Source of the DNA: a bacterium
Lineage (GTDB): Bacteria > SM23-31 > JAUVVT01
NCBI GenBank assembly: GCA_030616165.1
Contig: JAUWXV010000196.1
Location: forward strand, 1 to 7,010
Length of the DNA stretch: 7,010 bases
Direction of reading: 5' to 3'
Both the position numbers and the translations under genes were made by a program. Each line of letters starts with the position of its first letter. The first letter of the stretch is position 1. Below are positions 3,151 to 7,010 of this stretch, one piece after another. The notes under the pieces were generated by a model. It saw nothing but the letters and a program-made list of their open reading frames with translations. It was not told the origin of the DNA and made no database searches.

Positions 3151-3220
3151 ATCCTGAAACAAGTTCAGGATTGCTGAAATGGTAAATATAAGATATTTAT
3201 TCCTGAAGCAAGTTCAGGAT
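3151..3220. repeat. Pair of TCCTGAA-(A/G)CAAG-TTCAGGA palindromes
   Basis: Copy 1 (3151-3171) has arms ATCCTGAA and TTCAGGAT, an 8-bp perfect stem with loop ACAAG. Copy 2 (3201-3219) has arms TCCTGAA and TTCAGGA with loop GCAAG. The copies are in the same orientation, 49 bp apart, and identical over 21 bases apart from one A/G in the loop. Both are preceded by an ATATTTA word. There is no T-run, so they are not classical terminators. They look like a dispersed intergenic palindromic repeat family. Confidence 0.75.
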
Positions 3221-3382: not shown

Positions 3383-3480
3383 GATTAAATAGAAGAGCGT
3401 CAAGAACGCCATTAAATATAGTTTTAGAGCTTCAAGAAGGCCATAGTTTGAATCAATAGGTTCAGATTGTGGCTTTTTTT
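3383..3480 (+). ncRNA. Candidate small RNA or terminator-controlled leader with twin CAAGA-loop hairpins
   Basis: The stretch runs from the predicted start point to the end of the intrinsic terminator, about 98 nt, with no plausible reading frame. It holds two copies of an 18-nt unit, GAGCGTCAAGAACGCCAT (3395-3412) and GAGCTTCAAGAAGGCCAT (3427-3444). Each folds into a 4-bp stem with a CAAGA loop (3397-3409 and 3429-3441). The only two differences between the copies fall on the same base pair (G-C versus U-G), so pairing is kept. This is evidence for selection on RNA structure. The second hairpin overlaps the first two bases of the terminator stem, so the two cannot both form completely. It may be a free-standing sRNA, or a 5' leader attenuating the regulator gene, whose ribosome binding site begins 23 nt later. 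I do not recognise the RNA family. Confidence 0.4.
3440..3480 (+). terminator. Strong intrinsic terminator upstream of the HTH regulator
   Basis: GCCATAGTTTGAA (3440-3452) pairs over all 13 positions (three G-U wobbles) with TTCAGATTGTGGC (3461-3473) across the loop TCAATAGG, directly followed by seven Ts. It is preceded by a purine/A-rich tract. Its position between a promoter-like sequence and the ribosome binding site of the next gene suggests either the 3' end of an sRNA or an attenuator. Confidence 0.8.
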
Positions 3481-3514: not shown

Positions 3515-3727
3515 ATGACTAACAAAAAGCTTAAATCAAAAATTATTGAGCAATATGGTTCTCAGAGCGATTTCGCTCAGGTATTGAAAATTCACGAATC
3601 AGTTATTTCCAGGGTTATTCAAGGTAGAAAGAGATTATCTAAAGCCGAGCAATTACGCTGGGCAGAGGCTTTAGGATGTAAAATAAAAGAATTTTATAAT
3701 TTAATAGAAACCAACAGCAATAGTTGA
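3515..3727 (+). CDS. Small Cro/C1-type (XRE) helix-turn-helix regulator
   Basis: 70 aa. It is almost entirely one Cro/C1-like HTH domain: 'SQSDFAQVLKIH' (about 16-27) forms the positioning helix and 'ESVISRVIQGRKRLS' (28-42) the recognition helix and following turn. The consensus Ser/Arg/Gly pattern 'S-x-V-I-Q-G-R' typical of phage and plasmid repressors is present. There is no dimerisation or sensory domain beyond the short C-terminal helix, so it resembles Cro rather than a full CI repressor. The start is fixed by AAGGAG 6 nt upstream. The stop overlaps or nearly abuts the primase start, implying one operon. A likely role is DNA-binding control of the replication genes and its own leader; the target is not shown. 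TCAAGAA words near the promoter are candidate operators. Confidence 0.85.
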   Translation: MTNKKLKSKIIEQYGSQSDFAQVLKIHESVISRVIQGRKRLSKAEQLRWAEALGCKIKEFYNLIETNSNS

Positions 3728-3735
3728 ATTGTAAT

Positions 3736-6093
3736 ATGTCAGAGAAAAAGACATTTAAATTGTGGGATTATGAAAAGAGAGAGCCTTTTGAGGTAGTAGC
3801 AACGAAACAAGGCAAGCAATGGATGGCTATATGCCCTAAACATAATGACACAAAACCGAGTTTATCTATAAATGAGGATGAAAAGATTTATAATTGTTTT
3901 GGTTGCGGTTGGAAGGGACGGTTTTATAACCCAGATTATAAATATAAAAAAAAAGAAAATATAATAATGAATATCTATGACTACGAAGATGAAAATGAGA
4001 AATTGTTGTTTCAGGTTGTTAAATATTATCCTAAAAAATTTGTGCAAAGGAGACCAGGCGGTAAAGAAGGCTGGATATGGGATTTAGATGGAGTTAGGCG
4101 TGTATTATATAAACTTCCATCTTTAATTAAGGGCAGTGATCCTGTATTTATAGTTGAGGGGGAGAAGGATGTTGACAATGTTATTAAGCTCGGATTGACA
4201 GCTACAACTAACCCTATGGGAGCAGGAAAGTGGAAACCAGAATATAATGAGTTTTTAAAAGATAGAAGTGTTGTTCTTATTCCAGATAATCACAAAGAAG
4301 GGTTTGAACATGCTGAACAAGTAGGAAAATCACTTTTAAATGTTGCAAAAAATATAAAATATCTTGAACTACCAGGACTGAAAGAAAAAGAGGATATTTC
4401 GGATTGGATTAGAAAGGGTGGAACTAAGGAAGAGCTCTTAGAATTAGTAAAACATGCACGTCAATATAATCCCTATATAACAGTTTATCAAGATAAAGGA
4501 ACATATATAAAAAAACAAAAAGGTGAAATATCAAATTTCATAATAAATCCCTTAGTAAGGGTCCAAACTGACGAGGGAGAATTTTTAAAATCAGAAATCA
4601 TTACTAATCTAAAAAAAACTTATCCTATCCAGTTTAGTCCTGATGATTTGAATTCAAAGAATAAATTTAAAAAAGCGTTAAGAGGTTATCTTGACCTTCA
4701 ATTCTTTGGCTCTGATGATGATATTCAGCATATTAAAGGTATTCTTGCAAGTTATAAGCCTCAAATAAAAAGGGGAATTAAAACAACTGGCGTGCATAAA
4801 GTTGATGGAAGTTGGGTATATGTTGAAGAAGGGCTTGCTTGTGATAGCAACGGAAATAGAGATGATATTACATATATTTCAATGAATCCCTATAAGACAA
4901 ACCTACTCAAAGAAACAGCACTAACCTCCGAACAGTTAGATGAAATGTTGTCTTTTCTTTGCGGATTTAATGATCCTGATGTAGTTTTTCCAATACTCGG
5001 TTTTTGTTTTGCCTGTTTTGTAAAAGAAAGAATATTTGACATAACAAATCAAAATCCAATTTTAGTTTGCTGGGGAGAAAAAGGTTCTGGAAAAACAGAG
5101 ACATTGAGTCAAATCATAAAACCGCTTTTTGGTATTCGTTCAGATATTGAAAACATTGGACACCCGACAGAATTTGGGTTAGCTCGTATTATATCCTCAT
5201 CAAACCTGCCACCAATACTTTTTGATGAATATAAAACAAATAAATTTTCAGATTCTCAAAAAAAAATAATTTCCGAAATGCTAAGAAGTGTTTATAATCA
5301 GACAAGGTTAACAAGGGGAACTCCTGATTTGAGAATTGTAGAATTTGTTTATTCTGCACCAGTTATATTAGCAGGCGAAATGGGAATATCTGAACTTGCA
5401 ATAAAAGATAGGATAATAGAAACTTATTTTTCAAAGAAAGAAACAATAAAATATACAGAAGAATTTAATAATTTAAAAAACCTTCCTCTTGGTTCTCTTG
5501 GTAAGGATTTTTTACAATGGACATTAAAGATTCCCGACAACGAGATTAAAAAAATATGGCAAACGCAATTTGAAAATGTTGACGAAGCCCTTAAATATAG
5601 GCTAAGGCAAAATACTGCATATGCCCGGTTGGGGTTAAAGTTATTTTTAAATTACTTACAAAATAGGGGAATAAATATAAAACCATTTGAAATAGGTTTC
5701 AATAAAATAGACCAGAGCCAAAAGAAAAATATCCTTGAAGAGAGTAATAAAACCATTGTTGATACTATCATCGAGGCATTTTCAATTATGGCAGAAAAGG
5801 GAACGATAGAAAAAAATAAACACTACATGATAGATATTAACAAAAATTTACTGTATTTGCATATTTCCAGTTTATATCCAGAATTTAAAAAATGGGCAAA
5901 AGATTATCAGTGGGATGGTGAGATTTTAAATACCAATAGTTTTACAAAACAAATCAAAGAGAATAAGTATTTCATAGAAAATAAAAGCTGTAGATTGGGG
6001 AAAATAGTAAAATGGGTAATATGTCTTGACATAACTAAAATGAACCATTTAGAGATAGAAAGCTTTGTAAATGAATTAGAAACAACAATGTAA
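3736..6093 (+). CDS. Primase-helicase: CHC2 zinc finger, TOPRIM and P-loop ATPase
   Basis: 785 aa from ATG 3736. TTG 3724, overlapping the upstream stop as TTGA, would add four residues; neither start has a Shine-Dalgarno, so translational coupling is likely. Residues 33-57 form a DnaG-type zinc finger with exact C-x2-H-x17-C-x2-C spacing (C33, H36, C54, C57). Residues about 135-240 are a compact TOPRIM domain: 'VEGEKDVD' (E141, E143, D145), then 'LIPDNH' (D184, H186; usually DND) and 'EKEDISDW'. Residues about 245-370 resemble the linker found in phage and plasmid primases. Walker A 'GEKGSGKT' is at 447-454, Walker B 'ILFDE' at 494-498, a sensor-like 'VILAGE' at 543-548 and a possible arginine finger at R559. 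The C-terminus may contain a winged helix. It probably unwinds DNA and primes replication of a mobile element. The substituted TOPRIM residue leaves primer synthesis uncertain. It could be a phage, plasmid or integrative-element protein. Confidence 0.88.
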   Translation: MSEKKTFKLWDYEKREPFEVVATKQGKQWMAICPKHNDTKPSLSINEDEKIYNCFGCGWKGRFYNPDYKYKKKENIIMNIYDYEDENEKLLFQVVKYYPKKFVQRRPGGKEGWIWDLDGVRRVLYKLPSLIKGSDPVFIVEGEKDVDNVIKLGLTATTNPMGAGKWKPEYNEFLKDRSVVLIPDNHKEGFEHAEQVGKSLLNVAKNIKYLELPGLKEKEDISDWIRKGGTKEELLELVKHARQYNPYITVYQDKGTYIKKQKGEISNFIINPLVRVQTDEGEFLKSEIITNLKKTYPIQFSPDDLNSKNKFKKALRGYLDLQFFGSDDDIQHIKGILASYKPQIKRGIKTTGVHKVDGSWVYVEEGLACDSNGNRDDITYISMNPYKTNLLKETALTSEQLDEMLSFLCGFNDPDVVFPILGFCFACFVKERIFDITNQNPILVCWGEKGSGKTETLSQIIKPLFGIRSDIENIGHPTEFGLARIISSSNLPPILFDEYKTNKFSDSQKKIISEMLRSVYNQTRLTRGTPDLRIVEFVYSAPVILAGEMGISELAIKDRIIETYFSKKETIKYTEEFNNLKNLPLGSLGKDFLQWTLKIPDNEIKKIWQTQFENVDEALKYRLRQNTAYARLGLKLFLNYLQNRGINIKPFEIGFNKIDQSQKKNILEESNKTIVDTIIEAFSIMAEKGTIEKNKHYMIDINKNLLYLHISSLYPEFKKWAKDYQWDGEILNTNSFTKQIKENKYFIENKSCRLGKIVKWVICLDITKMNHLEIESFVNELETTM

Positions 6094-6106
6094 TGAATGT
6101 AAGAGC

Positions 6107-6128
6107 TTGTAAGAGGTGTTTCTTACAA
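6107..6128. repeat. Perfect hairpin TTGTAAGA/TCTTACAA
   Basis: TTGTAAGA (6107-6114) and TCTTACAA (6121-6128) form an 8-bp perfect inverted repeat around a 6-nt spacer, 14 nt after the primase stop. The next T-rich run begins only 12 nt later, so it is a poor terminator. It looks like a dyad protein-binding site built from two repeat units in opposite orientation. Confidence 0.7.
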
Positions 6129-6164
6129 ATTATATAATTGTTTTTATTATAAGTTAGTTATTAA

Positions 6165-6280
6165 TGTAAGAATGTAAGAGAAATTTGATGATATACTCTA
6201 CGTGCGAGAGAGAAGAGTAAACGCTAATAATAAAAATTCATATAAGGGGCTACACAGCAAAAATCACTTACATTCTTACA
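6165..6280. repeat. 14-bp perfect inverted repeat enclosing a smaller dyad
   Basis: TGTAAGAATGTAAG (6165-6178) recurs as its exact reverse complement at 6267-6280, 88 bp apart. Each arm is a tandem of two TGTAAG units with an 8-bp period. Between the arms sit TACTCT (6194-6199) and AGAGTA (6214-6219), a second inverted pair flanking a purine-rich GAGAGAGAAG stretch. The symmetry suggests paired binding sites that could loop the DNA. Confidence 0.75.
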
Positions 6281-6368
6281 AGTTATTGTTAAGTATTTAA
6301 AAATTAAAAATATATGTTGCAATAATTAGGCATTACAAAAACTTACATTTTTATTACAGGTTGTAGTA

Positions 6369-6833
6369 ATGGGTGAAAAAGAGAATAAAATAACTGTAAT
6401 TGTAGATACCAGAGAACAACAGCCTTATCATTTTAAAAAAGAGAAATATATTCAGACCATAAAGCAAAAACTTGATGCCGGCGATTATTCTCTGAAAGGT
6501 TCTACTGACAAGATAATTATTGAGCGTAAGACTCTAAATGATTTATTTGGGATAATTGGTAATGGGCGGGAACGGTTTAAAAGGGAATTGCAGCATCTTA
6601 AGGATAATTGTGAGTTTCCCATTCTATTAATTGAAGGGAATATTTCTGATATATTTGATAAATATGCTTTGCCATATGAATCAAAAATACATCCAAACAG
6701 CGTGATTGGTTCGCTGATCAGTTGGAGCGTCAAATTTGGGATACAAATAATTTTTGCGGGAAATAGAATAAGGGCTGAATTAATTGCAGCTAAATATTTA
6801 ATAAAGGTTAATGAGATAATAACCAAAAAATAG
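6369..6833 (+). CDS. Stand-alone ERCC4/XPF-type nuclease
   Basis: 154 aa, starting at ATG 6369, with only a weak AGG 8 nt upstream. The whole protein is one ERCC4 nuclease domain. It has 'VDTREQQPY' (D13, R15, E16), 'AGDYSL' (G38, D39) and the hallmark 'IERKTLNDL' (E52-R53-K54-x3-D58), giving the family signature GD-xn-ERK-x3-D intact. 'RERFKRELQHL' and 'FPILLIEGN' follow, as in XPF/Mus81 and phage relatives. The tandem helix-hairpin-helix and helicase domains of cellular XPF are absent, as in viral and plasmid-borne versions. It would be a metal-dependent endonuclease cutting branched or flapped DNA at replication or recombination intermediates. Its place after a primase-helicase and the repeat-rich gap supports a role in element replication. 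It is followed after 18 nt by a winged-helix gene, so the two are probably cotranscribed. Confidence 0.87.
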   Translation: MGEKENKITVIVDTREQQPYHFKKEKYIQTIKQKLDAGDYSLKGSTDKIIIERKTLNDLFGIIGNGRERFKRELQHLKDNCEFPILLIEGNISDIFDKYALPYESKIHPNSVIGSLISWSVKFGIQIIFAGNRIRAELIAAKYLIKVNEIITKK

Positions 6834-6851: not shown

Positions 6852-7010
6852 ATGAATGAAAAATTATTAAAAACAACAGATGAACAGCTTTTAGAAATAT
6901 TGGAAAATCAACCAGATATGGCACAAGAACAGATAGGTAAAACTCTGGGCATTTCACAACAAGCAATTTCTAAGAGAATAAAAGCTCTTATAGAGAAGGG
7001 AAGGTTTAAT
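6852..7010 (+). CDS. Winged-helix DNA-binding protein, N-terminal part (3' end outside window)
   Basis: The first 53 residues from ATG 6852, open to the window end. AGGGGG (6838-6843), 8 nt upstream, serves as a purine-rich ribosome binding site. 'DEQLLEILENQPDMAQEQIGKTLGISQQAISKRIKALIEKGR' is a classic winged helix-turn-helix of the AsnC/Lrp/MarR kind: a first helix, the turn 'QEQIGKTLGIS', the recognition helix 'QQAISKRIKALIEKG' and the start of the wing. The rest is missing, so it could be a transcription regulator, a phage replication-organiser-type protein or an initiator with an N-terminal HTH. It lies 18 nt after the nuclease and shares a near-identical GGTTGTA leader with it. Confidence 0.7.
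   Translation, partial: MNEKLLKTTDEQLLEILENQPDMAQEQIGKTLGISQQAISKRIKALIEKGRFN

Follow-up and report, generated by a model that had tools for sequence, protein, structure and literature searches.

A candidate iteron-type replication origin directly behind a primase-helicase gene in an apparently mobile element of an uncharacterised bacterial lineage

Here, we analysed a 7,010-bp stretch of DNA (the window), which is one entire contig (C74) of a 3.74-Mb MAG in 343 contigs, and found that the 275-bp non-coding gap behind its primase-helicase gene (positions 6094-6368) is probably the replication origin of a mobile element, be it a phage, a satellite or an integrative plasmid, which the protein encoded by the preceding gene would recognise. 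The gap is 75% A+T and contains eight TGTAAG iterons. A sequence-only reading of the window had drawn attention to these eight words, four per strand, with 8-10 bp local spacing in non-coding DNA, to an adjacent 12-bp AT palindrome, and to the location of the cluster directly after the primase-helicase gene, all of which we recovered. Its proposal that the gap is an origin gains support from the specificity of the word and from clusters behind related genes; the primase-helicase would bind this DNA, and replication would start there. One gene and 275 bp from an uncharacterised lineage would thereby constitute a testable minimal replicon.

Results

The right half of the contig is a replication module with all genes on the plus strand. 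It is headed by a 70-aa Cro/C1-type HTH gene (3515-3727), the probable regulator of the module (Pfam HTH_3, PF01381, 2.3e-6; PHROG repressor families), followed by the primase-helicase gene (3736-6093, 785 aa), the candidate initiator by its Pfam and PHROG matches, the gap, an ERCC4-type nuclease gene (6369-6833, 154 aa; PF02732, 1.2e-20) that is also present on the sister contig C127, and the start of a winged-helix gene (6852-7010, HTH_24) that runs off the end of the contig. The last 100 bp match positions 4123-4222 of another contig, C324, at 100%, so that the end of C74 falls inside the element; as the right end continues in C324 and a terminal repeat is absent, the possibility that C74 is a circular contig was rejected. 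When completed from C324 (4073-4558), the winged-helix protein has 161 aa and weakly resembles terminase small subunits (phrog_2538, 1.8e-5), but general wHTH/MarR families outscore this match. In the left half of the contig lie an unknown gene and, at 275-2173, the gene of a glycine-rich beta-helix protein whose C-terminus is type IX secretion-like; the latter gene adjoins the mobile replication module and is either cargo of the element or part of the chromosomal flank.

The primase-helicase consists of a CHC2 zinc ribbon (PF01807, 5.4e-12), a Toprim domain and an AAA helicase with the Walker A motif GEKGSGKT, and matches phrog_26824 (1.7e-39) over residues 129-779 as well as several DNA primase/helicase PHROGs. 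The C-terminal region looks, by its sequence, like the winged helix of D5/P4-type initiators. The AlphaFold models are too poor to confirm this fold or to serve in a fold search (pLDDT 52 for the full primase and 50 for the C-terminus), and the protein has no match to the P4-type primase C-terminal family in Pfam or NCBIfam. Close relatives of the full primase were not found in IMG/VR. The helicase half is homologous to that of Halorubrum virus CGphi46; a profile of the divergent helicase halves retained too little conservation for searching. On sequence comparison, the primase-helicase is an assembly of exchangeable halves.

The gap is bordered by the primase stop codon (6091-6093) on the left and the ERCC4 start (6369) on the right, and its words form two mirrored groups. 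The left iteron group (6098-6127) comprises TGTAAG at 6098 and 6108 on the plus strand and at 6122 on the minus strand, and is followed by the 12-bp palindrome AATTATATAATT (6128-6139), which lies within an AT-rich stretch (6128-6162) and is not known to matter. Next comes the direct double iteron TGTAAGAATGTAAG (6165-6178, plus strand), with words at 6165 and 6173, mirrored at a distance of 88 bp by the inverted double iteron CTTACATTCTTACA (6267-6280, minus strand), with words at 6267 and 6275. The AT-richest stretch of the gap in an A+T scan, in which 24-mers reach 96% A+T from 6289, spans 6281-6341 and is a candidate melting region; the last iteron (6342-6347, minus strand) lies 21 bp ahead of the ERCC4 gene. 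Within groups, words on the same strand are spaced by 10, 8 and 8 bp, about one helical turn, and the AT-rich stretches at 6128-6162 and ~6289-6317 lie inside or beside the groups. The ninth copy of TGTAAG in the window, at 5655, falls within the primase gene.

Genome-wide, TGTAAG occurs 1,416 times in 3.74 Mb, from which 0.104 copies are expected per 275 bp against the 8 observed (P = 3.1e-13, or ~1e-6 after multiplication by all genome positions). The word is not equally dense elsewhere, an outcome on which the sequence-only reading had depended. In 5,000 dinucleotide shuffles of the gap, TGTAAG reached at most 3 copies, the cluster is the strongest word cluster on the contig, and the 14-bp double word TGTAAGNNTGTAAG has only two copies in the genome, both in the gap and mutually inverted. 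When the choice of word is allowed for, the best hexamer reached at least 8 copies in 37 of the 5,000 shuffles (0.7%; p ~ 0.007), so that the word count considered without the layout is only moderately surprising in AT-rich DNA. A fortuitous accumulation of an AT-rich word in non-coding DNA of similar composition would be in line with that value, with the 75% A+T of the gap and with the selection of the word after the data had been seen; yet the genome-wide density, the confinement of the double word to the gap and the fact that related gaps cluster GC-rich words too render it extremely improbable.

Iteron arrays can also be parS/incompatibility sites. A partition (centromere-like) site, or some other structural or RNA element, would fit this precedent and the folding of the gap strand, which is more stable than that of shuffles (z -2.5). 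However, this fold is mainly due to the inverted pairs of words, the window contains no ParA/ParB gene, and no Rfam family was found in the gap, so that we regard a function of this kind as highly unlikely. A GC-skew analysis, suggested together with the origin proposal, showed no switch across the contig, and no skew minimum coincides with the cluster in the Roseomonas and Microcystis circular plasmids considered below.

The comparison with contig C127 is informative as to what the word follows. Its ERCC4 protein is 79% identical to that of the window, and at the DNA level the two genes are 81% identical, the similarity beginning almost at the start codon. The gap before the C127 gene carries the word TGCCACA, again in two sets that mirror each other, with 24 bp of 100% A+T between them, and the frame upstream of this gap is unlike the upstream gene of the window. 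Thus, position and layout were kept, and the word changed with the upstream gene rather than with the downstream gene. Given that the upstream 94-aa frame of C127 matches no family, we only infer that it represents the C-terminus of an initiator. Downstream of the ERCC4 gene, at 965-2570 of C127 (locus L045), lie an excisionase-like gene, a tyrosine integrase gene and tRNA-Arg(CCT), which together indicate the end of an integrated element, so that this region is likely the attachment site of the sister element. The 7 kb of C74 contain neither integrase nor attachment site, int, xis and tRNA-Arg being on C127; as the ERCC4 gene common to both contigs adjoins excisionase, integrase and tRNA genes there, the window module looks mobile. 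Beyond this genome, only distant ERCC4 homologs (~32-44% identical) were found, and their upstream gaps were left out of the analysis.

These observations bear on the possibility that the words form an operator, at which either the Cro-like protein (3515-3727) or the product of the winged-helix gene (from 6852) binds to control a promoter of the ERCC4 and winged-helix genes. Two HTH genes flank the module, and hexamers resembling promoter elements occur in the gap (6122-6150 and 6297-6326), as an operator would have it. Nevertheless, such hexamers are no commoner in the gap than in its shuffles, an ordinary operator would need fewer than eight copies in two mirrored groups across 250 bp, C127 retains the ERCC4 gene yet has another word, and the clusters of relatives keep to the 3' end of the initiator gene even where the context is very different. 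We consequently consider an operator unlikely.

On C324, the gene upstream of the winged-helix gene encodes a phage O-like initiator, and a 36-bp remnant of the window primase start (89%) persists at 2534-2569. The winged-helix continuation, the O-like initiator and the primase remnant imply recombination among several related mobile modules of this genome. The same contig (locus L037) encodes three paralogous winged-helix proteins (1223-1603, 1631-2023 and 4073-4558), the start of one gene being nearly identical to the last gene of the window.

The reading of the gap as an origin recognised by the upstream gene product was further examined in a survey of 160 loci with relatives of the primase half, drawn from viral contigs and GTDB genomes. 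For the 148 testable loci, hexamers over-represented relative to shuffles were scored within the 300 bp that follow the stop codon, and 2,957 windows after other frames of the same loci served as controls. Word clusters with z > 3 followed 19.6% of the 148 relatives vs 1.0% of the controls (Mann-Whitney p = 2.7e-15), those with z > 5 followed 12.8% vs 0.24%, and after clustering at 60% identity 20 of the 115 protein clusters were positive. The words of positive loci differ (GTGACA, CGGGAC, GGAAAC, CGTAAG, CGTTAA and others), some being GC-rich; their style does not vary, in that both strands are used in 27 of 27 and the same-strand spacing peaks at 10 bp. In a position-free scan, the best cluster lay at most 300 bp from the initiator stop in 39 of 52 strong-cluster loci. 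The best windows were centred within the 300 bp before the stop in 17 of these 52, and some clusters may overlap the 3' coding end, as in Microcystis plasmid p1 (L242, 1-230). Positive loci cover several helicase types, including AAA_25, VapE-like, DUF3987 and D5_N. A 3' cluster is lacking in four fifths of the relatives surveyed. Related elements lacking any cluster were the other outcome that would have counted against the sequence-only reading, and the result is divided: many such elements do carry a 3' cluster, usually with another word, and some homologs have none. The association is strong but, because several homologs lack the cluster, not universal.

In 32 elements with clusters, we compared the C-terminal 130 residues of the initiator with the profile of the word. 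Pairs with at least 30% identical C-termini had a word similarity of 0.68 vs 0.36 for other pairs (permutation p = 5e-5). The Mantel rank correlation over all pairs was not significant, the signal coming from related pairs only, as expected if the words of unrelated proteins are mutually random. This pattern could stem from shared ancestry of protein and origin. By inspection, many iteron words start with TGT on one strand (TGTAAG, TGTGGC, TGTTAC, TGTCAC, TGTCCC and TGTCCA in the window, L045, L060, L194, L202 and L240), the proteins being only distantly related.

Individual relatives illustrate the range of the layout. In the viral contigs L092, L110 and L127 (IMG/VR), the AAA part is detectably related to that of the window, and in the gaps TA-rich DNA is enclosed by inverted sets of CGTAAG and TGTAAG, nearly the word of the window; the exact CGTAAG double-pair pattern had no match in IMG/VR. 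In Halorubrum virus CGphi46, the 449-bp 3' gap, a putative origin, contains 11 copies of GTAACA in mirrored order, with inverted GTAACA/TGTTAC spaced by 9 bp. This virus shares with the window a homologous helicase half and an iteron-like 3' gap but differs in its archaeal host and in its primase half, which is of the PriCT_2 type rather than CHC2/Toprim. Two complete circular plasmids likewise have clusters at the 3' end of the primase-helicase gene, namely, TGGACA x11 in the 9.7-kb Roseomonas plasmid and GGTGAC x10 in the 7.0-kb Microcystis plasmid. In three 21-kb Terrisporobacter plasmids, a full-length homolog is the only CHC2/DNA-replication gene in the gene tables, which supports the role of the protein as a plasmid initiator. 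The presence of relatives on circular plasmids lends indirect support to the idea that the gap and its initiator could replicate autonomously. No cluster was found 3' of the homolog in these Terrisporobacter plasmids or in Bordetella phage PY223, and none was seen by eye in Vibrio phage PS14A.1, where the gap is 27 bp, or at the MAG locus L067.

Seven other viral contigs (L243-L249, IMG/VR) contain many TGTAAG/CGTAAG words in the layout of the window within non-coding DNA, for instance, at 2101-2226 of L246 and 8185-8310 of L244. A primase of the L127 type was not detected in these records; in the contigs examined, the cluster is located between the terminase/portal genes and the early region, or by an ATPase gene, and in L247 a VapE/D5-like helicase gene lies ~1 kb from it. 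These clusters may be origins served by another initiator, or may represent a second use of the word. In contigs such as L246, terminase genes lie ~1.6-2.2 kb from the TGTAAG cluster, a proximity that, together with the weak terminase-small-subunit match of the winged-helix protein encoded just downstream of the gap, could speak for a pac/cos-like packaging site recognised by that protein. Against this stand the weakness of the match, which the general wHTH/MarR families surpass, the arrangement on C127, where the ERCC4 gene is accompanied by Xis and Int instead, and the occurrence of clusters behind initiators on plasmids, and we see little prospect that the gap serves in packaging. None of the rival readings explains why clusters of differing words recur at the 3' ends of initiator genes across many contexts.

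Discussion

If the gap is the origin of the element, replication might proceed as follows. The primase-helicase would be expressed from the module that begins with the Cro-like gene, and its C-terminal DNA-binding part would bind the TGTAAG words in the two mirrored groups, with their spacing of about one turn; given that the groups are mirrored, two helicase rings could face each other, as we propose. The AT-rich DNA beside or between the groups would then melt, the self-loading AAA helicase would take the single strands, and the zinc-ribbon/Toprim primase, a domain evident in the protein and presumably active, would lay primers from which a polymerase could copy the element.

Phage P4 uses separate ori and crr regions and in this respect differs from the window, as it does in the P4-type C-terminal family, which the window protein does not match. 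Nonetheless, the P4 alpha protein, which combines a Toprim-type primase with a helicase and an origin-binding domain and acts on a cognate origin (PMC6092414, PMC4234260), resembles the arrangement proposed for the window, namely, a primase fused to a helicase and a cognate origin. In the crenarchaeal plasmid pRN1, the origin lies directly 3' of the primase-helicase gene, the initiator having a C-terminal winged helix (PMC4234260), a location shared by the candidate origin of the window; however, the pRN1 origin is a 100-bp stem-loop without iterons and its primase is of the archaeo-eukaryotic type. The C-terminal domain of SCCmec Cch2 binds AAGTG iterons downstream of its gene in vitro, at a putative origin (PMC7581432). 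Like the window, the SCCmec system has short iterons in intergenic DNA behind a helicase gene, but it has three iterons only, a separate primase-polymerase and no Toprim domain.

The closest parallels are with the SaPI/PICI family of elements. In PICI origins, which are located 3' of pri-rep, an AT-rich region is flanked by two sets of iterons; for one PICI, the ability of the pri-rep-ori segment to maintain a plasmid was examined in E. coli alongside controls from which the gene or the ori had been deleted (PMC6092414). According to a passage of PMC7581432 that cites Ubeda 2007, the C-terminal domain of SaPI Rep recognises iterons directly downstream of its own gene. By analogy, the iterons of the window would be recognised by the C-terminal part of the primase-helicase. 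The window resembles these elements in having two sets of iterons directly 3' of the primase-helicase gene, in the pri-rep position, with AT-rich DNA, in the difference of words between elements, and in belonging, as it seems, to a mobile integrating element. It differs in that its protein combines a CHC2 zinc ribbon with Toprim and AAA domains and is followed by an ERCC4 nuclease gene; in that its AT-rich stretches lie inside or beside the iteron groups, although on C127 the 100% A+T stretch falls cleanly between the sets; and in that its type occurs in an uncharacterised MAG lineage, phages and plasmids. The candidate origin of the window can be viewed as a 3' iteron origin in the style of those of SaPIs and PICIs, differing from theirs in initiator and neighbour genes. 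The layout was stated to occur in no other known bacterial replicon (PMC6092414); its frequency in phages and plasmids of many lineages in our survey suggests a distribution beyond that statement.

More generally, self-loading primase-helicases from several unrelated helicase families (AAA_25, VapE/DUF5906, DUF3987, D5 and that of the window) might have their origin at the 3' end of the gene that encodes them, the word co-evolving with the C-terminus, in phages as well as in plasmids and islands, whether bacterial or archaeal; we consider the case for such a rule to be evenly balanced. If it holds, both the origin and its specificity could be read from the sequence of the element. The survey suggests that many unannotated origins could be found right behind primase-helicase genes in viral and metagenomic contigs, and from paired data on C-termini and words the code by which these initiators recognise DNA could be learnt.

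Other repeats in the window

Two further kinds of repeats were noticed upstream of the replication module. At 3153-3218, the near-palindrome CCTGAA(A/G)CAAGTTCAGG occurs twice; it has 18 genome copies scattered over contigs, vs 0 for the reversed control, and appears to be a dispersed REP-like hairpin. At 3396-3478, just ahead of the Cro-like gene, small hairpins in tandem (GCGTCAAGAACGC, GCTTCAAGAAGGC) are accompanied by a terminator-like hairpin that is strong, with 20 pairs, and together they represent a possible attenuator or small RNA; by eye, similar terminator-like hairpins lie ahead of genes on C324.
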